A DNA stretch of 30,686 nucleotides from a virus. The stretch is from IMG/VR virus record IMGVR_UViG_3300044630_003015, positions 1 to 30,686 of that record. One strand, written 5' to 3'. Positions 6,764 to 22,528 of this stretch are shown here, one piece after another. The notes below the pieces were generated by a model. The model was not told the DNA's origin and searched no databases. It saw only the letters and a list, made by a program, of their open reading frames with translations. Each line of letters begins with the position of its first letter. Position 1 is the stretch's first letter. Made by a program: the position numbers and the translations under genes.

Positions 6764-6774
6764 TCCTTTCAGGA
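6764..6774 (-). promoter_or_regulatory. Stop-hairpin-SD element H1 (TCCT-GAA-AGGA)
   Basis: Read on the - strand, 4-bp stem with a GAA loop, 9 nt before the ATG at 6755. The TGA stop of the upstream gene (6771-6769) forms the top of the hairpin and the AGGA arm is the Shine-Dalgarno site of the next gene. Confidence 0.7.
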
Positions 6775-7137
6775 TATTAATTGTCTAGCCACTATACCCT
6801 TGCCAACAGCAACAGGTGTTTTATAACGCACAGCATTCTCTAAGAAATACATGAACTTGCCTGTGCCTTCTTTAAAATAAAAGGCATTGTCCTCAGTCAC
6901 CATGTGCAGGGGCTGATAGGTATCGAAAATTGATTTACTATTTGTCCAACTAAAACCAGTGATAGTAACTTCGCCTATGGCAAATGCCTTACCCATACCT
7001 GTCCTGACAATTGCTATTCGCTTGCCAACATAGGGATATAAGCTATTGCTTTCCCGTGTCTCTATAGTTTTAAAACCATCGACAATTAAATCAGCAAAGG
7101 GTTTGTCCTTTGTGTTTCTAACATTAATGCCTAACAT
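6769..7137 (-). CDS. ASCH-domain protein
   Basis: 122 aa. The N-terminal part (FADLIVDGFKTIETRES, then PYVGKRIAIVRTG and FAIGEVTI) matches the ASCH/PUA-like fold: a GxKTIETR motif followed by strands with AIGxV. ASCH domains are thought to bind RNA or modified nucleotides; some have nuclease or deacylase activity. The length equals one domain. The protein may act on RNA in the infected cell, an inference from the fold. It lies between two hairpin elements that link it to its neighbours. Confidence 0.75.
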   Translation of the reverse strand: MLGINVRNTKDKPFADLIVDGFKTIETRESNSLYPYVGKRIAIVRTGMGKAFAIGEVTITGFSWTNSKSIFDTYQPLHMVTEDNAFYFKEGTGKFMYFLENAVRYKTPVAVGKGIVARQLIS

Positions 7138-7145
7138 AATATGTT

Positions 7146-7156
7146 TCCTTTCAGGA
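7146..7156 (-). promoter_or_regulatory. Hairpin-SD element H2 (TCCT-GAA-AGGA)
   Basis: Same hairpin as at 6764-6774, 8 nt before the ATG at 7137. Here the upstream gene ends in TAA 1 nt before the stem, yet the TGA-containing hairpin is kept. Confidence 0.65.
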
Positions 7157-7157
7157 G

Positions 7158-7409
7158 TTAATCAAACGATTCATCTAATGCATAACCATTATCTCGCAGC
7201 ATTTTAACCACTGCCTTTGGCAGCATATAATCACCATCAAAATCTGCCAGTTCTTTACCCTCAAACCACAGCCCACCACCCTCGCTGCCGTATCCATGTT
7301 CCCAATACCCATACTGTGTAGAGGGTGATATCTTGACGATACCCATGCCCACATCCTCACCATATGGGTAAAGGGTAATTGTATAATTGTGTTTTTGGCA
7401 ATAAGTCAT
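7158..7409 (-). CDS. Hypothetical protein, 83 aa
   Basis: Start taken at the ATG at 7409, next to hairpin element 7417-7429; a longer frame to 7451 would overlap the upstream gene. It contains a Gly/Trp-rich stretch (YGYWEHGYGSEGGGLWFEGKEL) and a C-terminal helix. It resembles small phage proteins with a similar EGGGLWFE core that I recall, with no known function. Confidence 0.7.
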   Translation of the reverse strand: MTYCQKHNYTITLYPYGEDVGMGIVKISPSTQYGYWEHGYGSEGGGLWFEGKELADFDGDYMLPKAVVKMLRDNGYALDESFD

Positions 7410-7416
7410 AATATGT

Positions 7417-7429
7417 TTCCTTTCAGGAA
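7417..7429 (-). promoter_or_regulatory. Stop-hairpin-SD element H3 (TTCCT-GAA-AGGAA)
   Basis: 5-bp stem with a GAA loop, 7 nt before the ATG at 7409. The TGA of the cysteine-peptidase-like gene (7425-7423) lies in the hairpin. Confidence 0.7.
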
Positions 7430-7851
7430 TGTTTATACACTGCAATGACACGGCTGTTAGACCGATTTAAATTCATGTCAACGACACCACCATTGACCAC
7501 AGCCAATGCATGCCGTGTAATGATGACTATGTAGCTGCCATTTGTAAGCTTAGGCAATATGCTGCCAAGGGTTGTGCCATTCTGTGCCACAACAGATATC
7601 TTCTTCGCTAGGTATCGTGCCCCTTTGGTTGTGCCGTAGACACCTACCAGTGACATGCCATTGGAAATGTATGCATCGTGCCACACATTACAGGTGCAGC
7701 CTCGCTTGTCTTTCCTGCCATGTTGACGCAGTATGTTATGGGCATTGCCATATCGTAGACCAGTGCTGTTAGCTAGTGCCCTGACTGTACAGTCTGCACT
7801 CTCACCCCATGTTGATACACCAGCAGTGACAGGGATAATTGTTTTAGCCAT
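7423..7851 (-). CDS. Putative papain-like cysteine peptidase
   Basis: 142 aa. The layout suggests a papain-like cysteine-peptidase fold: C21 at the start of a helix (DCTVRALANSTGL), then a C-terminal strand pair with H114 (ITRHALAVVNGGVV) and D125. A His-Ala-x-Ala-Val plus Asp pattern after a distant Cys is typical of C39/NlpC-like folds. Three more Cys/His residues (CTCNVWH, 52-58) are extra. I recall small phage proteins starting with the same DCTVRALA motif. There is no signal peptide, so it acts inside the cell. Substrate unknown; some family members are inactive. It is the first gene after promoter 8128-8157. Confidence 0.6.
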   Translation of the reverse strand: MAKTIIPVTAGVSTWGESADCTVRALANSTGLRYGNAHNILRQHGRKDKRGCTCNVWHDAYISNGMSLVGVYGTTKGARYLAKKISVVAQNGTTLGSILPKLTNGSYIVIITRHALAVVNGGVVDMNLNRSNSRVIAVYKHS

Positions 7852-7856
7852 GTTTA

Positions 7857-7871
7857 TTTCCTTATAGGAAA
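7857..7871 (-). promoter_or_regulatory. Hairpin-SD element H4 (TTTCCT-ATA-AGGAAA)
   Basis: 6-bp stem with an ATA loop, 5 nt before the ATG at 7851. This copy follows a promoter, not a gene, and it lacks the TGA. Confidence 0.7.
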
Positions 7872-8094
7872 GCGAAGCGAAATAGCTTCAGGCAATGCAT
7901 CAAAATACACTGTCTGAAACCCATTGTCTAGCCATCACCCAACAGCCACAATGGATTCACTCACATATTATCAGCATGATATGTCAGCATGCCCTGTACA
8001 TTCACCCTGTACAGATTGGGCTAGTCCATAGTGGTGATGCATGCCCTGCTAAGAAACACACACCCTCACCGACACTAGCATTAGATTTTTAAAG

Positions 8095-8105
8095 AGCGAC
8101 TTGCT
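8095..8105 (-). promoter_or_regulatory. Leader inverted repeat AGC-N5-GCT after promoter
   Basis: Short inverted repeat 22 nt downstream of the -10 box at 8128-8133. It is a weaker relative of the CAGC-N6-GCTG repeats at 2679, 9335 and 10434. Confidence 0.35.
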
Positions 8106-8127
8106 GCACTACGATCAGTGCCCTTAC

Positions 8128-8157
8128 ATTATACAAACATCTTGCTTCGCTTGTCAA
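8128..8157 (-). promoter_or_regulatory. Consensus sigma70-type promoter, leftward
   Basis: On the - strand, TTGACA (8157-8152), 18-bp spacer, TATAAT (8133-8128), both boxes perfect. It would drive the cysteine-peptidase-like gene and the string to its left. Confidence 0.85.
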
Positions 8158-8333
8158 CTGTTGCAGAAAAACAACCCTACAACTTAGTCGGCTTTTGCCT
8201 CGCATAACATATGCTTAGCTTGGCCTAGATCCCTGTGCCACAATGCAACCCATCATCACATGGCTATTCGCATCATCATGGCACAGACACTCTGCATAAG
8301 GCTGACTCGCAACCTTACACGGAATGCCTAAGC
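8158..8333. other. Intergenic stretch, no gene seen
   Basis: About 175 bp between the end of the gp88-like gene and the promoter at 8157. I see no convincing open frame and no terminator. A 14-bp perfect palindrome (8326-8339, GCCTAAGCTTAGGC) spans the stop codon of the gp88-like gene. Confidence 0.4.
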
Positions 8334-8339
8334 TTAGGC
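8326..8339. repeat. 14-bp perfect palindrome at gene end
   Basis: GCCTAAGCTTAGGC reads the same on both strands and contains the TAA of the gp88-like gene. No T-run follows in either direction, so it is not a typical terminator; a protein-binding site is possible. Confidence 0.5.
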
Positions 8340-9089
8340 GGCTTGCAGCATGAATACAGGCTTAGCTGCATCAACGACAAAGCCTGTCATATCAAGCTTC
8401 GCTTTGCCCTTGGCATACAGCGCAACAACCACACCCTTATCCTCTAAGTGACGAATGTCACTGTTGTCGCCACCGATGACCGACATGCCTTTAAATACCT
8501 TCGGTATAGCAGCAACACTACGGAAAACAACAGCGAGTCGCATACCATTTTCAATGGCTTTGTTTACAAAAGGCTGAAAGCCTACAACACCACTGTAGCT
8601 GAATGTAAGATCGTAATTTAAAGGCAAAGCCTTACGATTCACATCCTTTGTGTAGTCGTAGAATTGCACTGTAGGGAAAGCATCGAAGATGCTAGAGTAT
8701 TCCACACCATCGGTGTCTGTAAAAGCTACGCTTTCCCAGCGAATGTCGCTAGTACCATTGAGTCTAACCAATGGGATTAAGCTTTGCTTAGCAGCTTTGC
8801 TCACTAGCTGTCGAATGTTTACAGCAAGCTGTTGCATGAAGCTGTTTCGTTCAGTAAAAAACCAAATGGTTTTGTTGATACGGCCATTTGCCACAGTGGA
8901 CATCGCACCACGGCCAGCAGTGTACAAGCAAGCTTCGCCGCACTCAGCGATCTTAGCCATGCTGCATGTATTCCACTTTGTGGAAAGGTAAGGTGCTAGA
9001 TAGAGAATGCCTGTCAGAAAACCGAAGGTTTCACCCTTGCTAGTTTTTGCATCGGCATTGATGGAAAGCAAAGCTTTAGACTTGAACAT
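8334..9089 (-). CDS. Gp88-family phage protein
   Basis: 251 aa. It matches what I recall of the 'gene product 88' family of actinophages and other phages and plasmids: an N-terminal KTSKGETFGFLTGILYLAP, a Cys cluster C42, C50, C54 in CSMAKIAECGEACLYTAGRG, a helical part with FFTERNSFMQQL, and the signature VRLNGTSDIRWE (108-119). The Cys spacing suggests a metal site. Biochemical function is not established. The C-terminal part continues as alpha/beta (MSVIGGDNSDIRHLEDKG). A hairpin-SD element (9097-9109) precedes the start, and the stop lies in a palindrome. The gene is intact and full length for the family. Confidence 0.85.
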   Translation of the reverse strand: MFKSKALLSINADAKTSKGETFGFLTGILYLAPYLSTKWNTCSMAKIAECGEACLYTAGRGAMSTVANGRINKTIWFFTERNSFMQQLAVNIRQLVSKAAKQSLIPLVRLNGTSDIRWESVAFTDTDGVEYSSIFDAFPTVQFYDYTKDVNRKALPLNYDLTFSYSGVVGFQPFVNKAIENGMRLAVVFRSVAAIPKVFKGMSVIGGDNSDIRHLEDKGVVVALYAKGKAKLDMTGFVVDAAKPVFMLQAA

Positions 9090-9096
9090 GATGTGT

Positions 9097-9109
9097 TTCC
9101 TTTCAGGAA
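9097..9109 (-). promoter_or_regulatory. Stop-hairpin-SD element H5 (TTCCT-GAA-AGGAA)
   Basis: 5-bp stem, GAA loop, 7 nt before the ATG at 9089. It contains the TGA of the 69-aa gene (9105-9103). Confidence 0.7.
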
Positions 9110-9312
9110 TAATTTTTCAAACGCAAAATGTGGGATTGATTGAATGTTGGCACTTTCAAGGTTACTTTGTAACCTAGTACCGCAACATCGGCAAGTACTT
9201 TGTAAGTAAGTGTTTTAGTCCCTGCAATTGAAGCAAAAAGCTTTGCTTTATTGCATACAGGGTAGACTTGCTCTACTCCGTAGACATTTTTAATTTCAAC
9301 GATAATTTCCAT
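9103..9312 (-). CDS. Hypothetical protein, 69 aa
   Basis: Start at the ATG at 9312, behind hairpin element 9317-9329 with its AGG; a longer frame to 9336 would run into the leader. Predicted mostly beta (MEIIVEIKNVYGVEQVYPV, then VLGYKVTLKV). No family recognised. First gene after promoter 9361-9390. Confidence 0.65.
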   Translation of the reverse strand: MEIIVEIKNVYGVEQVYPVCNKAKLFASIAGTKTLTYKVLADVAVLGYKVTLKVPTFNQSHILRLKNYS

Positions 9313-9316
9313 TTGT

Positions 9317-9329
9317 TTACCTATGGTAA
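9317..9329 (-). promoter_or_regulatory. Hairpin-SD element H6 (TTACC-ATA-GGTAA)
   Basis: 5-bp stem with an ATA loop, 4 nt before the ATG at 9312. A promoter-proximal copy without TGA. The stem differs from the TCCT/AGGA type at paired positions. Confidence 0.7.
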
Positions 9330-9334
9330 GTGAC

Positions 9335-9350
9335 ACAGCGAAATTGCTGT
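9335..9350 (-). promoter_or_regulatory. Leader inverted repeat ACAGC-N6-GCTGT
   Basis: 5-bp inverted repeat 10 nt downstream of the -10 box, like those at 2679-2692 and 10434-10447. Confidence 0.5.
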
Positions 9351-9400
9351 TTCGGCCTCAATTATAACGACTTTGCAATAACCCTGTCAAGTCTAGGGCT
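9346..9400. repeat. Promoter cassette repeat, copy 1
   Basis: About 55 bp similar to 10444-10498. The first 21 bp (9346-9366) are identical and the -35 region is nearly so. It carries a full leftward promoter, so this is a duplicated or transplanted promoter module. Confidence 0.7.
9361..9390 (-). promoter_or_regulatory. Consensus sigma70-type promoter, leftward
   Basis: TTGACA (9390-9385), 18-bp spacer, TATAAT (9366-9361) on the - strand. It lies inside the last codons of the gene ending at 9362 and would drive the 69-aa and gp88-like genes. Confidence 0.85.
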
Positions 9401-9616
9401 TTCATCCCAAGCTTTATAAACCTGCGGTTTCGTATGCTTGCCTCTGGATGCTACCCATATGCCACCCTTGTATATGCTTGCACCACCATGTCTGCCATAG
9501 CATGCTGCCCACTCAGCAGCTTCGCTGAATGTGAATGTGTAATGGCGTTTCTTGCTGCCCTTACCAATGACTGTAAAGCCTACGGCTTTTGCGAGAATGT
9601 TGCGGATAGTTTGCAT
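9362..9616 (-). CDS. Hypothetical protein, 84 aa
   Basis: Basic small protein. After a helical start (MQTIRNILAKAVGFTVIG) it has GSKKRHYTFTFSEAAEWAACYG and GGIWVASRGKH. No family recognised; the basic, aromatic pattern could suit a small nucleic-acid-binding protein. Its 3' end was taken over by promoter 9361-9390. Confidence 0.65.
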   Translation of the reverse strand: MQTIRNILAKAVGFTVIGKGSKKRHYTFTFSEAAEWAACYGRHGGASIYKGGIWVASRGKHTKPQVYKAWDESPRLDRVIAKSL

Positions 9617-9618
9617 TG

Positions 9619-9634
9619 TTTACTTTCAGGTAAA
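9619..9634 (-). promoter_or_regulatory. Hairpin-SD element H7 (TTTAC-CTGAAA-GTAAA)
   Basis: 5-bp stem with a 6-nt loop that keeps CTGAAA, 2 nt before the ATG at 9616. The upstream gene stops at a TAA 8 nt earlier. The downstream arm is GTAAA, not AGGA, so the pairing is kept while the ribosome site is poor. Confidence 0.6.
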
Positions 9635-9642
9635 TCTACGAT

Positions 9643-9834
9643 TTAATATGTGAAGCCGATTACGACAGGCTTATCAGCCTTGATAAATATCTCACGGCAA
9701 ATGTCTTCGACATCAATGCAGCTAAACGACTTTGTCGTTCTGTCATATGCACCCTTGATGTATACAGCTTTGCTGTCAGCTTTGCGTTTAATGTATTCAC
9801 CAATTTTGGCGGTTTTCAATGTGACGATTTGCAT
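9643..9834 (-). CDS. Hypothetical protein, 63 aa
   Basis: Small alpha/beta protein (MQIVTLKTAKIGEYIKRKAD, then SFSCIDVEDICREIFIKADKPV). No family recognised. It is coupled to the upstream 35-aa gene through hairpin 9838-9850. Confidence 0.65.
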   Translation of the reverse strand: MQIVTLKTAKIGEYIKRKADSKAVYIKGAYDRTTKSFSCIDVEDICREIFIKADKPVVIGFTY

Positions 9835-9837
9835 AAG

Positions 9838-9850
9838 TTACTTTCAGTAA
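9838..9850 (-). promoter_or_regulatory. Stop-hairpin element H8 (TTACT-GAA-AGTAA)
   Basis: 5-bp stem, GAA loop, 3 nt before the ATG at 9834. The TGA of the 35-aa membrane gene (9846-9844) is in the hairpin. Both arms differ from H5 yet still pair. Confidence 0.7.
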
Positions 9851-9951
9851 GTGAAAATGGCGAACATCACAGCAAGCACTATGACGGGTGACATGAATGT
9901 CATTAATGACACAGGCTGAGGGTTTGTCAGCCAATTGAGCAAATGTTTCAT
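9844..9951 (-). CDS. Small membrane protein, 35 aa
   Basis: Short protein with a hydrophobic C-terminal segment (VSLMTFMSPVIVLAVMFAIF), one likely membrane helix. It lies between two hairpin elements in the same way as its neighbours, which supports it despite its size. Function unknown; a small phage membrane protein such as a lysis or exclusion peptide is possible but unproven. Confidence 0.6.
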   Translation of the reverse strand: MKHLLNWLTNPQPVSLMTFMSPVIVLAVMFAIFTY

Positions 9952-9952
9952 G

Positions 9953-9967
9953 TTATCTTTCAGATAA
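9953..9967 (-). promoter_or_regulatory. Stop-hairpin element H9 (TTATCT-GAA-AGATAA)
   Basis: 6-bp perfect stem, GAA loop, 1 nt before the ATG at 9951. It contains the TGA of the 65-aa gene (9962-9960). There is no AGGA, so structure is kept over ribosome-site sequence. Confidence 0.7.
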
Positions 9968-10157
9968 TGTTGTAGGTTTGGCTGCCGCTTTGCAATTCGC
10001 AAAACATTTCATACAATACTTTGTATGTTGCAACATTCCCTGTCGCCACTGCAATAATCATTGACAGTTTGTCAATGTTAGAGTTATTGCATTGCAGCTT
10101 CGCTGCTTCGTACAGCTTCGCATTGTGTAAGGCAGTGATAATTTGTTCGGTTTGCAT
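9960..10157 (-). CDS. Hypothetical protein, 65 aa
   Basis: Helical small protein (MQTEQIITALHNAKLYEAAKL, then VATGNVATYKVLYEMF). No family recognised. It holds two GCGAAGC sequences on its coding strand (10121-10115 and 10103-10097), part of a local enrichment. Confidence 0.6.
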   Translation of the reverse strand: MQTEQIITALHNAKLYEAAKLQCNNSNIDKLSMIIAVATGNVATYKVLYEMFCELQSGSQTYNII

Positions 10158-10162
10158 GATGT

Positions 10163-10177
10163 TTATCTTTCAGATAA
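10163..10177 (-). promoter_or_regulatory. Stop-hairpin element H10 (TTATCT-GAA-AGATAA)
   Basis: Same 6-bp stem and GAA loop as H9, 5 nt before the ATG at 10157. It contains the TGA of the 76-aa membrane gene (10172-10170). Confidence 0.7.
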
Positions 10178-10400
10178 TGTTAATGCTGTTACGCTTTTCA
10201 TTCCGGTAAATTACATTTACCAACACAACTGTCATCAAGGCAAAGCCTATTGCAGCACCTAGGGCAAGCTCACCAGCAAAGCTTACCGATGACGGAATAG
10301 CAAAGTAGCAAGCTACTTCAAGCAGTGACATGGCGGCAAAGAACACAGCGAGAGTAGCTTCGCTATAGATAAAGAAAATGCGTTTGAGTGATTTTTTCAT
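10170..10400 (-). CDS. Small two-helix membrane protein (holin-like shape)
   Basis: 76 aa from the ATG at 10400, next to hairpin 10407-10417; the frame extends to 10442 but that part is leader. A short basic N-terminus (MKKSLKRIFF) is followed by two hydrophobic segments (about residues 14-32 and 45-68) and a basic tail (YRNEKRNS). The size and topology resemble small holins or other phage inner-membrane proteins, but there is no endolysin nearby, so the role is open. First gene after promoter 10459-10488. Confidence 0.65.
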   Translation of the reverse strand: MKKSLKRIFFIYSEATLAVFFAAMSLLEVACYFAIPSSVSFAGELALGAAIGFALMTVVLVNVIYRNEKRNSINII

Positions 10401-10406
10401 GGTGTT

Positions 10407-10417
10407 TACCTTCGGTA
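10407..10417 (-). promoter_or_regulatory. Hairpin-SD element H11 (TACC-GAA-GGTA)
   Basis: 4-bp stem with a GAA loop, 6 nt before the ATG at 10400. A promoter-proximal copy: the loop is GAA but no TGA is present. Confidence 0.65.
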
Positions 10418-10433
10418 GTGTAGCGTTTTGAAG

Positions 10434-10447
10434 CAGCAACATCGCTG
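10434..10447 (-). promoter_or_regulatory. Leader inverted repeat CAGC-N6-GCTG
   Basis: 4-bp inverted repeat starting 11 nt downstream of the -10 box, matching the layout at 2679-2692 and 9335-9350; the loop differs. Confidence 0.5.
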
Positions 10448-10498
10448 TTTCGGCCTCAATTATACAAACATTTCAATAGCCCTGTCAAGTGTAGGGTT
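10444..10498. repeat. Promoter cassette repeat, copy 2
   Basis: Counterpart of 9346-9400: identical for its first 21 bp and strongly similar over the rest, including TTGACA. Confidence 0.7.
10459..10488 (-). promoter_or_regulatory. Consensus sigma70-type promoter, leftward
   Basis: TTGACA (10488-10483), 18-bp spacer, TATAAT (10464-10459) on the - strand. It is the rightmost leftward promoter and drives the 76-aa membrane gene and the string after it. Confidence 0.85.
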
Positions 10499-10503
10499 TC
10501 TCA

Positions 10504-10625
10504 GGCAGCAAAGCTGCGGCGTATGACGCTTGCATTACATGCGCGAGTGATGCCTATGTCATGCGAGGCTTTTCGTCATTTAATTGTTTTGTTGTTTGTT
10601 GTTGGCAGCAAAGCTGCTGCGTATG
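10504..10625. repeat. Direct repeat pair with internal GCAGC-AAA-GCTGC inverted repeats
   Basis: 10504-10525 and 10604-10625 match at 21 of 22 positions by my reading, exactly 100 bp apart. Each holds the inverted repeat GCAGC-AAA-GCTGC. Further similarity (GCGAGGCTTT around 10563 and 10662) suggests an old tandem duplication of about 100 bp. Confidence 0.7.
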
Positions 10626-10691
10626 TATGCCTGAAGCTTGGCGTAGACAAGCCTTCGGTTTGTGCGAGGCTTTCATCAACATTGTCGTTTG

Positions 10692-10757
10692 TTGCATTGC
10701 AGCATTGGGATATATAAGCTGTTGATTATTTGCATCGTTTATTGCATTGCAGCATTG
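10692..10757. repeat. 16-bp direct repeat, 50 bp apart
   Basis: TTGCATTGCAGCATTG occurs at 10692-10707 and 10742-10757. A related TTATTGCATTGCAGC lies at about 10084-10098. Such iteron-like repeats can bind replication or repressor proteins. Confidence 0.65.
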
Positions 10758-10789
10758 ACTCATTAGTTGCAATGTAGACTGAGTAGTCA

Positions 10790-10804
10790 CTATACGATGT
10801 ATAG
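10790..10804. repeat. Inverted repeat CTATAC-GAT-GTATAG
   Basis: 6-bp perfect stem with a 3-nt loop in the non-coding control region. It is followed at once by the near-palindromic GGATATAGATATACC. Confidence 0.6.
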
Positions 10805-10884
10805 GGATATAGATATACCGACCCTTCACAGTGTAGGGGTATGGTATTTAATGACCGGTTAGTCAGTAACATATCATGTCGCAG

Positions 10885-10938
10885 CTGATTTTGAATCAGT
10901 TTCAAGAGTCTTATAAGTCATTGATTCTTAAGACTCTT
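10885..10938 (+). terminator. Two adjacent hairpins, possible terminator
   Basis: The first is CTGATT-TTG-AATCAG (10885-10899). The second has 10-bp arms AAGAGTCTTA (10904-10913) and TAAGACTCTT (10929-10938) with a 15-nt loop, followed by TT on the + strand. The stem is AT-rich and the T-run short, so it may instead be a protein-binding or origin structure. Confidence 0.4.
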
Positions 10939-10980
10939 TTGAATGACGGGTGAATTTACGCAGGGCTGTAGCGCTCACCT

Positions 10981-11060
10981 GCCGCTGGATGTGCAGGGCT
11001 GCGCGAGTGTGCGCCAGTGCGCGGCTAAGCGTGGGCGGGTGTGGGCCAGTGGGGGGTACG
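10981..11060. other. GC-rich island
   Basis: By my count 59 of 80 bases are G or C, far above the flanks. GCAGGGCTG occurs at 10960-10968 and 10993-11001. It may be a structured RNA, an origin element or foreign DNA. Confidence 0.45.
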
Positions 11061-12121: not shown

Positions 12122-12195
12122 ATGCCTCTGATGTAACGGCAGCATAGCAGTCTCCAAAACTGTTAGTCGGAGTTCGAATCTCTGGGGGTGTGCCA
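12122..12195 (+). tRNA. tRNA-Trp (CCA anticodon)
   Basis: All arms can be folded: acceptor 7 bp (with T-G and G-T wobbles near the end), D stem ATGT/GCAT, anticodon stem GCAGT/ACTGT with loop CTCCAAA (anticodon CCA), T stem CGGAG/CTCTG with TTCGAAT loop, then G plus encoded CCA. It lies between two small + strand genes and would be co-transcribed with the late cluster. The encoded CCA is normal for many phage tRNAs. Confidence 0.88.
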
Positions 12196-22452: not shown

Positions 22453-22528
22453 CGCGGAGTATGGAAGTGGTCATCCGCTTGGCCTCATAAGCCAAGAATC
22501 GGGGGTTCGAATCCCTCCTCCGCAACCA
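22453..22528 (+). tRNA. Initiator-like tRNA-Met (CAT anticodon)
   Basis: Acceptor CGCGGAG pairs with CTCCGC, leaving C1 opposite A72 unpaired: the mark of bacterial initiator tRNA. D stem TGGA/TCCG gives G11-C24 (purine-pyrimidine, also initiator-like). Anticodon stem TTGGC/GCCAA has three G-C pairs beside loop CTCATAA, though in the order GGC/GCC, not the classic GGG/CCC. T arm GGGGG-TTCGAAT-CCCTC, then ACCA encoded. An elongator Met or Ile2 tRNA would not have the C1-A72 mismatch. It sits between scaffold and capsid genes. Confidence 0.85.

Follow-up and report, generated by a model that had tools for sequence, protein, structure and literature searches.

A proposed array of DNA mini-hairpins in the early region of freshwater HMO-2011-like phages

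Hairpins at gene starts in the early region

The window, meaning the whole stretch of 30,686 nucleotides analysed here (viral record IMGVR_UViG_3300044630_003015), has eleven short hairpins just ahead of minus-strand gene starts. All eleven were found where a preliminary description had placed them, and its tally of the loops (eight GAA, two ATA and one CTGAAA) was right. Three of them have 4-bp stems (10407, 7146 and 6764), three have stems of 6 bp, and the stems of the remaining five measure 5 bp. As had been described, the TGA of the upstream gene lies within the hairpin in six of them (10163, 9953, 9838, 9097, 7417 and 6764), and the three start hairpins lacking it at 7857, 9317 and 10407 each stand behind a TTGACA-18-TATAAT promoter with 12 of 12 matches (8157, 9390 and 10488, respectively). 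Hairpins of the same type, missed by the preliminary description, are also dense within the coding sequences. The features are as follows.

8334..10900, minus: mini-hairpin array, dense stretch (early genes), continuing more weakly to about 6.4 kb
10605..10617, minus: hairpin gcagc-TTT-gctgc, ahead of early promoter 1
10505..10517, minus: hairpin gcagc-TTT-gctgc, ahead of early promoter 1
10459..10488, minus: early promoter 1, TTGACA-18-TATAAT, consensus match
10407..10417, minus: start hairpin tacc-GAA-ggta; the ATG at 10400 follows the loop centre by 12 nt
10205..10221, minus: in-gene hairpin ggtaaat-GTA-atttacc
10163..10177, minus: start hairpin ttatct-GAA-agataa; includes the upstream TGA
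10094..10106, minus: in-gene hairpin gcagc-GAA-gctgc
9953..9967, minus: start hairpin ttatct-GAA-agataa; TGA inside
9838..9850, minus: start hairpin ttact-GAA-agtaa; TGA inside
9764..9776, minus: in-gene hairpin acagc-AAA-gctgt
9725..9739, minus: in-gene hairpin aacgac-AAA-gtcgtt
9701..9713, minus: in-gene hairpin atgtc-GAA-gacat
9631..9645, minus: hairpin taaatc-GTA-gattta, at a gene end
9619..9634, minus: start hairpin tttac-CTGAAA-gtaaa
9575..9589, minus: in-gene hairpin aaagcc-GTA-ggcttt
9418..9430, minus: in-gene hairpin aaacc-GCA-ggttt
9361..9390, minus: early promoter 2, TTGACA-18-TATAAT, consensus match
9317..9329, minus: start hairpin ttacc-ATA-ggtaa; follows promoter 9390, lacks a stop codon
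9237..9249, minus: in-gene hairpin aaagc-AAA-gcttt
9159..9175, minus: in-gene hairpin aggttac-AAA-gtaacct
9097..9109, minus: start hairpin ttcct-GAA-aggaa of the GP88 gene; TGA inside
8334..9089, minus: GP88 family gene, 251 aa; 12 triloop hairpins, many positionally conserved in relatives
9065..9077, minus: GP88 in-gene hairpin aaagc-TTT-gcttt
9019..9031, minus: GP88 in-gene hairpin aaacc-TTC-ggttt
8971..8985, minus: GP88 in-gene hairpin ttccac-AAA-gtggaa
8778..8790, minus: GP88 in-gene hairpin taagc-AAA-gctta
8722..8734, minus: GP88 in-gene hairpin aaagc-GTA-gcttt; in relatives covaries to aaacc/ggttt and gaagct/agcttc
8679..8693, minus: GP88 in-gene hairpin agcatc-TTC-gatgct
8621..8633, minus: GP88 in-gene hairpin aaggc-TTT-gcctt
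8571..8583, minus: GP88 in-gene hairpin aggct-TTC-agcct; relatives show several covarying stems
8545..8557, minus: GP88 in-gene hairpin ccatt-GAA-aatgg
8495..8507, minus: GP88 in-gene hairpin atacc-GAA-ggtat; atgcc-TTC-ggcat in relatives
8128..8157, minus: early promoter 3, TTGACA-18-TATAAT, consensus match
7857..7871, minus: start hairpin tttcct-ATA-aggaaa; follows promoter 8157, lacks a stop codon
7417..7429, minus: start hairpin ttcct-GAA-aggaa; TGA inside
7146..7156, minus: start hairpin tcct-GAA-agga, 4 bp
6764..6774, minus: start hairpin tcct-GAA-agga, 4 bp; TGA inside

The excess over shuffled sequence that the preliminary description had proposed to check is present: a stem of at least 4 bp occurs at all eleven starts versus 19.5% of shuffled leaders, and one of at least 5 bp at eight of them versus 4.4%. 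Of the 17 further minus-strand starts in the window that were tested, four and one, respectively, reach these lengths. By pooling 37 loci (36 non-redundant loci and the window), we found a perfect start stem of at least 5 bp at 34.9% of 307 early genes (2.9% after shuffling) and at 3.8% of 666 non-early genes (2.0% after shuffling).

A regional array, mostly inside genes

The start hairpins are the edge of a larger array that spans about 8.3–10.9 kb and lies mostly inside genes. Perfect hairpins with a 3-nt loop and a stem of at least 5 bp number 27 versus 2.0 expected at positions 8001–10000 (about 13 times), and 24 versus 2.5 expected at 9001–11000. The peak disappears under synonymous shuffling (12 observed in the window against a mean of 2.0 and a maximum of 7 in 200 shuffles), and the hairpin excess thus survives control for the encoded protein.

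A similar peak was found in all 10 long relatives and in 59 of 80 related loci. Counts in this analysis are not independent, because peaks were defined by hairpin density and the rows are related. The array belongs to the early region of a clade of freshwater HMO-2011-like phages, and no named phage bearing such an array was found. Across 33 peak cores, 402 typical hairpins fall in coding sequence, 97 within 20 nt upstream of starts and 70 in other noncoding DNA, and their density is 5.9 per kb in coding versus 2.6 per kb in other noncoding DNA. Of the typical loops, 62% of those within coding sequence and 99% of those in start hairpins are on the sense strand. Among gene families present in both settings, six of seven are hairpin-rich only within hairpin-rich neighbourhoods.

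Start sites are only moderately richer than gene interiors: a hairpin lies within 40 nt before the ATG in 133 of 351 genes of the pooled peaks, and 689 of 2553 41-nt windows inside genes contain one. What distinguishes the starts is fixed position rather than frequency: among 142 upstream hairpins, 76 have their loop centre at -12. The eleven start hairpins of the window are array members with one arm that also serves as the Shine-Dalgarno site or takes its place.

Stem, loop and closing pair

The element consists of an uninterrupted Watson-Crick stem of 5–7 bp, an R-N-A triloop or its complement, and a closing pair with a 5' pyrimidine and a 3' purine around the structured triloop G/A-N-A, C-GAA-G and C-GTA-G being best. 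GAA, AAA and GTA loops are at chance with stems of 0–3 bp, rise to 30-, 39- and 74-fold at 5, 6 and 7 bp, and fall at 8 bp. Better loops get by with shorter stems: C-GNA-G is 13.8-fold enriched already at 4 bp, T-GNA-A 18-fold at 5 bp, and G-RNA-C only 1.6-fold at 5 bp and 8.7-fold at 6 bp. Most leading loops are also enriched as their reverse complements. T-GAA-A and C-AAA-G are as common as the C-GNA-G loops of the phage N4 rule. The biophysical motif d(GCGNAGC) is a stable DNA mini-hairpin, which the array resembles in having C-GAA-G and C-GTA-G among its most enriched loops; unlike that motif, the array is genomic, and C-GCA-G, though a GNA loop, is barely enriched (4 versus 1.0).

Covariation and maintenance of the arms

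The preliminary description held that the arms change together and that the hairpin is kept for itself, and comparison with relatives bears out both points, with the compensatory changes expected of a conserved secondary structure. For typical loops we counted 53 concerted arm changes to 95 core-broken cases inside the peak and 3 to 80 outside it. Loss is thus common even for typical loops in the peak. Over 40 GP88 genes, cells changed on both sides number 202 versus 103.9 after shuffling (reached in 0 of 500 shuffles; slid structures gave 55–78), although measures that count pairs and pair types are not above the shuffles (391/500 and 486/500). In line with the proposal that structure is kept over ribosome-site sequence, the Shine-Dalgarno sequence is sacrificed to pairing in some relatives: most GP88 leaders have an AGGAA arm, and those of L017, L018, L019, L021, L022, L023 and L065 have TTACC/GGTAA. 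The closing pair of GP88 helix 4 is GC in 20 and GU in 19, and another hairpin overlaps this helix.

Folding as DNA or as RNA

Hairpins in early mRNA might instead protect transcripts, pace or couple translation, or bind an RNA-binding protein, and at starts might sequester the ribosome site pending termination by the ribosome upstream. In termination-coupled translation hairpins hide the Shine-Dalgarno site, and the overlap of stop codon, hairpin and Shine-Dalgarno site in six of the eleven is alike; unlike that system, most array elements lie away from start codons and G-U is scarce. The fixed -12 position, the sense orientation of start hairpins and the higher density in coding sequence agree with a role in mRNA, as do RNA folding energies of -2 to -7.1 kcal/mol for five examples. 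The leaders of L038, L067 and MW202701 read GTTC-N4-GGAC, a putative hairpin that would need one G-U pair. G.T defects are also about twofold commoner than A.C at pairs 2–4 of 5-bp frames pooled over both loop sets (69 versus 44.5 expected, and 37 versus 47.1) and threefold at outer pairs 6–7 of 7-bp frames (58 versus 20), and 7-bp frames with R-N-A loops and one internal defect gave observed/expected counts of 36/4.7 for G.T and 12/3.8 for A.C. Some constraint on the sense-strand RNA would have this effect.

However, any single mismatch strongly reduces the enrichment: 5-bp stems are 23-fold enriched when perfect and 1.6-fold with one G.T, 1.3-fold with one A.C and 1.35-fold with one transversion. 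G.T is not preferred in near-hairpins at starts (4 versus 10.0 expected; A.C 14 versus 12.0) or among the single core defects that distinguish close relatives (7 G.T, 10 A.C). Over 360 windows the sense strand folds no better than the antisense (z of -1.32 and -1.27; difference -0.053 ± 0.066), and the enrichment extends to triloops that the mRNA would show as UUC or UUU. Within the window an Rfam covariance-model search at gathering score returned two tRNAs only. On the other side, generic DNA parameters predict the hairpin excess about as well as RNA ones. The cost of G.T and the equal folding of both strands favour DNA over mRNA, and we regard an explanation at the mRNA level as unlikely. 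The translation-coupling or RNA-protein switch at start codons suggested in the preliminary description is not favoured on the same grounds and since most elements lie inside coding sequences; its third option, a single-stranded DNA signal, fits best, with some probability left to a role in RNA.

Template switching

The array could also be a mutational footprint of no function, in which replication template switching perfects imperfect inverted repeats and keeps their arms alike, the conserved Shine-Dalgarno arm at gene starts being the template for the free 5' arm. Template switching does act here, by loop inversions that are few but exact. Two exact triloop inversions lie in otherwise identical 49-nt stretches (gatct-GAA-agatc and gatct-TTC-agatc in L052 and L050; tgttgga-GAA-tccaaca and tgttgga-TTC-tccaaca in L091 and L039), and among identical 5-bp cores three of nine fully changed loops are exact inversions versus 11.6% expected. 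Loops of 4–5 nt are inverted once in the peak (L025/L026) and three times outside, where one arm conversion was also seen. Stems that are Watson-Crick only, on both strands and in coding and noncoding DNA alike, would be its natural outcome, and template switching is reported to homogenise arms and invert spacers in coding DNA (PMC8604942) and to create and maintain hairpins (PMC8794818).

Against this as the whole explanation, like hairpins do not behave alike genome-wide: typical-loop hairpins outside the peak are not maintained, and the hairpin alone is therefore insufficient. Of the multi-base clusters, a nearby reverse complement accounts for just 4 out of 445 in the peak and 7 out of 1076 beyond it, and control transformations explain 1–3 and 1–6, respectively. 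Stems fall off beyond 7 bp where unchecked copying should leave a longer tail, and hairpin density in coding sequence exceeds the noncoding level. A purely mutational origin appears rather improbable. The published cases share arm homogenisation and exact loop inversion, in coding DNA too, but are single inferred events in RNA genes and yeast coding genes (PMC8794818, PMC8604942), whereas the array is dense and regional, follows a loop rule and is maintained inside its region only.

A proposed DNA mini-hairpin array and its relation to known systems

We tentatively propose, with a probability of roughly 45%, a DNA mini-hairpin array in the early region that is folded as DNA and kept there. Under negative supercoiling of the early region, or once it is opened by replication or by transcription, presumably from the three sigma-70-type promoters, the DNA itself would fold into small cruciforms or into hairpins of a single strand. 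The hairpins may be retained because they are required at these places by early-region topology or by a putative factor from host or phage, and template switching inside them, to which the loop inversions point, may help to remake them. A more specific version, in which supercoil-extruded mini-hairpins are selected on top of the protein sequence and read by a putative factor in the first minutes of infection, is conceivable and somewhat doubtful. Counted against the DNA array are the excess of G.T over A.C, the sense-strand bias, the higher density in coding sequence, the GC/GU pair of helix 4, the barely enriched C-GCA-G, the frequent loss, the pair-count measures at shuffle level and the similar performance of DNA and RNA parameters.

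If true, this would be a new kind of genome-encoded DNA structure, dense and written into early coding sequences, where the same bases serve protein and nucleic-acid structure. The functional phage DNA hairpins compared here (N4 and BPP-1) occur one to three at a time, while the array fills a whole gene region. Whether DNA, RNA or mutation is responsible can be addressed directly through the loop rule and the almost exclusively Watson-Crick covariation, and the cause can be searched for along the divide between relatives that bear the hairpins and those that lack them.

An explanation by N4-type promoter hairpins, with a virion-carried polymerase as their reader, is very improbable. The N4 hairpins (PMC4496689) need a C:G closing pair and a loop with 5' G and 3' A to extrude, do so at sub-physiological supercoiling, and tolerate exchange of stem bases that stay paired. 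The array is like them in its short stems, 3-nt loops, C-GNA-G rule and early-region location. N4 differs in that its three hairpins are each promoters of conserved sequence served by a cognate virion polymerase (PMC4496689), whereas here dozens of copies lie inside genes and on both strands, with three sigma-70-type promoters ahead of the early genes. The T7/N4-type RNA polymerase model PF00940 matched in none of 10 relatives, a search in which built-in controls were silent and a very divergent polymerase could escape, and matched in Pelagibacter phage HTVC134P as a positive control. The 1745-aa late protein of G001 matched no Pfam family at E 0.01.

The target of the diversity-generating retroelement of phage BPP-1 (PMC3240598) likewise carries a DNA hairpin or cruciform in which the stem counts by structure and not by sequence and the loop is constrained, there to G-R-N-A, and which forms under negative supercoiling; unlike the array, it has one element per target, with 7–10 GC-rich bp and a 4-nt loop. 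The reverse transcriptase model PF00078 matched in none of the 10 relatives, and its controls matched in 3 of 14 genomes. Inverted repeats in coding DNA are also kept alongside protein function in the mitochondria of Nematomorpha (PMC6649704), yet those palindromes are mitochondrial and reach 284 bp, and the hairpins described here are of 13–17 nt with a fixed geometry.

Triloop hairpins are concentrated in the early region

Perfect triloop hairpins (3-nt loop, stem of 5 bp or more) number 79 in the whole 30,686-base window, a virus record, versus 36.9 expected. The excess is concentrated in the early region (27 versus 2.0 expected in 8001-10000; 24 versus 2.5 in 9001-11000); it is milder at ~3-8 kb, and most late genes are at chance level. 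The majority of the window's triloop hairpins lie inside genes. Chance was ruled out as their source by dinucleotide shuffles, and no Rfam element was found. The 251-aa gene at 8334-9089 was assigned to Pfam GP88 via its copy in the long relative contig G001, and matches at 76-78% to Puniceispirillum phage HMO-2011 and spring phage MW202701 cover parts of the window's capsid and portal region. Two tRNA genes lie among the late genes:

12122-12195, tRNA-Trp (CCA)
22453-22528, tRNA-Met (CAT)

Through the GP88 gene we collected 80 of 172 related IMG/VR loci; among them, L013 has a 100% match to the window's gene and probably represents this virus itself or one almost identical to it. In 59 of the 80 loci the richest 2 kb contains ten or more triloop hairpins, where an average 2 kb expects ~2; the other 21 are mostly at or below ~66% protein identity (exception L038, 73%). 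Ten contigs of 55-62 kb, of unstated completeness, were examined almost whole, and in each the density maximum falls at the early region, with 9-15 hairpins per kb versus ~1-2 over most of the rest; in G010 the peak has a wide shoulder, and other bins reach 7. GC skew changes sign at the peak in 8 of the 10, and in G006 and G009 the peak sits at the contig end.

The typical array, defined by perfect 5-7 bp stems, R-N-A triloops or their complement and a Y-R closing pair, is absent from the first 50 kb of MW202701 and from the whole record of the isolate Limnohabitans phage DC31, whose GP88 is 65% identical and which has AT-rich bins of up to 7. A tie to the GP88 gene itself was rejected, as no typical array is present in DC31 or around GP88 in five further named phages. 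Locus L134 has downstream early genes in common (63-94% identity) and an early region without enrichment; GP88 was not found in its 47.6-kb record by a search run without a positive control. The first 1 kb of HMO-2011 (GU557055; L094:80-988), a homologous early position, contains seven triloop hairpins, of which only two have typical loops; C-GGA-G loops occur in two of the seven. This might represent the array in a weaker or older state. A host search by prophage gave just distant matches, in four uncultured genomes.

Seven gene families occur in both hairpin-rich and other neighbourhoods among the 80 loci plus L134-L136. Six are denser in hairpin-rich neighbourhoods, the exception being a 63-aa gene that is rich in either setting; the pooled rank correlation is 0.40 (n=428). 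The trait therefore seems to belong to the region, with which clade membership is confounded.

Loop and stem preferences

Across 36 non-redundant peaks, 3-nt loops were over-represented 5.8-fold, 4-nt loops 3.2-fold, 2-nt loops 2.6-fold and loops of at least 5 nt 1.0-1.9-fold. Stems around GAA, AAA and GTA loops were at chance level at 0-3 bp, rose from 4.3-fold at 4 bp through 30 (5 bp) and 39 (6 bp) to 74 at 7 bp, and then dropped. Pooling the peaks, the closing pair was C-G or T-A in 860 of 1070 hairpins. With strands collapsed, the leading loops were T-GAA-A (181 versus 2.5 expected), C-AAA-G (134 versus 2.0), C-GAA-G (95 versus 0.8) and C-GTA-G (59 versus 0.7), while C-GCA-G was scarcely raised (4 versus 1.0). 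Shorter stems suffice for better loops: C-GNA-G is enriched 13.8-fold at 4 bp, T-GNA-A from 5 bp and G-RNA-C from 6 bp, the last perhaps due to a single conserved GP88 site. This trade-off between loop quality and stem length points to folding ability as the property that matters. Weak 4-bp hairpins were depleted in the pooled peaks (G-RNA-C 7 versus 28.4 expected; T-ANA-A 8 versus 19.4), as if lengthened or avoided. Reverse-complement loop pairs at sites numbered 7 versus 5.0 expected with loops shuffled among sites, and the bulk test was not significant.

The hairpin excess survives control for the encoded protein

Codon usage was ruled out by synonymous shuffles of GP88 from 74 loci and the window (L039, L048, L060, L079, L087 and L089 were left out). 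Of 65 open frames retained, 48 carry 4-12 triloop hairpins and 17 fewer than 4, and permuting synonymous codons within each gene left a mean of 0.6-2.1. The hairpins are thus not a by-product of the encoded protein. Amino-acid conservation shows only a weak trend at hairpin columns, and 365 of 397 GP88 hairpins occupy positions common to at least four genes. Copies of one mobile element were rejected, given that stems vary freely and the GP88 proteins align with few gaps at these sites.

The preliminary description had seen both arms change together within the window, and compensatory changes were likewise seen in the GP88 genes of relatives. In 40 of the 48 hairpin-bearing genes, aligned over a structure taken from the same sequences (17 sites in at least four rows), both sides of a pair had changed in 202 cells versus 103.9 with partners shuffled (0/500), and slid structures gave 55-78; pair-count and pair-type measures, from a tool that accepts G-U as a pair, were not raised. 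Further comparisons used related pairs deduplicated by sequence only. Pairs ~90% identical showed 31 paired double changes versus 9 expected. Among close relatives, concerted versus core-broken changes numbered 53 versus 95 in the peak and 3 versus 80 outside for typical loops, and 14 versus 172 and 22 versus 396 for other loops. Identical flanks surround some of the concerted changes, such as AAAGC-GTA-GCTTT/AAACC-GTA-GGTTT (L043, L056) and TAAACC-GTA-GGTTTA/TAAATC-GTA-GATTTA (L033, L091). Of 714 differing hairpin pairs, taken regardless of place or loop, one arm was broken in 574 and only the loop differed in 69; the change was concerted but accompanied by a break in 42, and purely concerted in 29.

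A strong rival is that template-switch mutation is the whole cause of the hairpins. Such mutation is reported to be able to make and maintain hairpins (PMC8794818), and it explains how perfect arms can be remade; its signature is exact inversion (PMC8604942), and in two pairs of relatives a triloop inversion is the sole difference across 49 nt. Loops of 4-5 nt were inverted once in the peak and three times outside, and one arm conversion was found, outside. Alone, however, template switching leaves unexplained both the loss of like hairpins outside the peak and the fall-off of stems beyond 7 bp.

DNA or RNA structure

G-U pairs are usual in RNA stems. An origin in mRNA-level structure would fit the excess of G.T at core pairs 2-4 of 5-bp frames (both loop sets; 69 versus 44.5 expected, with A.C at 37 versus 47.1) and at outer pairs 6-7 of 7-bp frames (G.T 58, A.C 20), a closing pair of one GP88 helix split GC:20/GU:19, the sense-strand preference of R-N-A loops (432 to 180) and the favouring of CDS and starts, counted in the 33 of 37 loci that hold at least 15 hairpins in 3 kb. 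We nevertheless consider it the less likely reading: one G.T cuts the 23-fold enrichment of perfect 5-bp stems with R-N-A loops to 1.6-fold (A.C 1.3, transversion mismatch 1.35), G.T is not preferred at gene starts (4 versus 10.0 expected; A.C 14 versus 12.0), and antisense folds about as well as sense (RNA folding z of -1.27 and -1.32 in 360 peak windows from 15 chosen loci; controls -0.35 and -0.37). Single defects between close relatives in typical peak hairpins were G.T 7 and A.C 10 in the core and G.T 13 and A.C 7 in outer pairs, and generic nearest-neighbour energies did not tell RNA from DNA. On balance we think that the constraint acts on DNA, perhaps mainly the coding strand, and RNA may play some part. 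Folding DNA mini-hairpins are the best explanation of the early-region array, with a probability of about 45%.

Candidate mechanism and readers

Hairpins of phage N4 extrude below physiological supercoiling and require a C:G closing pair and the loop's 5'G and 3'A (PMC4496689), and the BPP-1 DGR hairpin depends on the structure of its stem and on a G-R-N-A loop (PMC3240598). Because of the analogy with these hairpins, we propose that the early region, transcribed from three consensus promoters, would extrude or expose a mini-hairpin array. That supercoiling extrudes the array, and that it is kept on top of protein sequence and read by some factor, is a rather doubtful extension. The promoters are 12/12 sigma-70-type matches with 18-nt spacers, in tandem across 2.4 kb and likewise present in G001:

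10459-10488, sigma-70-type promoter
9361-9390, sigma-70-type promoter
8128-8157, sigma-70-type promoter

Among possible readers, neither an N4-type RNA polymerase nor a reverse transcriptase was found in ten relatives, and a DGR was rejected. G001 encodes a Toprim-DnaB primase-helicase, family A DNA polymerase, Gp2.5-like single-strand binding protein, exonuclease and tyrosine integrase; a 1745-aa protein ending its late operon (L097:5127-10361, minus strand) has no Pfam family and one marginal PHROG. A like array was not seen in the titles and abstract openings of mostly non-subscription literature on phage triloop hairpins (among the matches listed) and on conserved start-codon stem-loops, nor among the matches listed on inverted repeats within coding sequence or early regions of phages, and a term search of the main paper on HMO-2011-type phages (PMC9038755) gave no hit for hairpin, inverted repeat, palindrome or stem-loop.

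Hairpins at start codons

The eleven hairpins reported upstream of minus-strand starts are present as described, including the loop tally and stop codons, and they exceed shuffled expectation, with stems of at least 4 bp at 11/11 starts and at least 5 bp at 8/11 (19.5% and 4.4% of base-shuffled leaders). Among the window's 17 other minus-strand starts, 4 and 1 have such stems. The three copies labelled promoter-proximal indeed each lie downstream of a perfect TTGACA-18-TATAAT. These hairpins are of the same class as the rest of the array. One occurs within the last 40 nt before 133 of 351 genes and in 689 of 2553 windows inside genes, making starts just moderately higher. The loop centre lies at -12 in 76 of 142 upstream cases in the pooled peaks, mostly with T-GAA-A loops. 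One arm usually reads AGGA(A), and one subclade changed both arms to TTACC/GGTAA; therefore pairing was kept and the Shine-Dalgarno site given up, in line with the earlier view that structure outranks the ribosome site. In leaders of L029, L032, L034 and other loci, a second hairpin lies ~25-40 nt ahead of the GP88 start. Its loop recurs (GATTTT in several), its stem differs between loci (GTAGC/GCTAC, GTAAC/GTTAC, GGC/GCC), and it may correspond to the transcript's 5' end.
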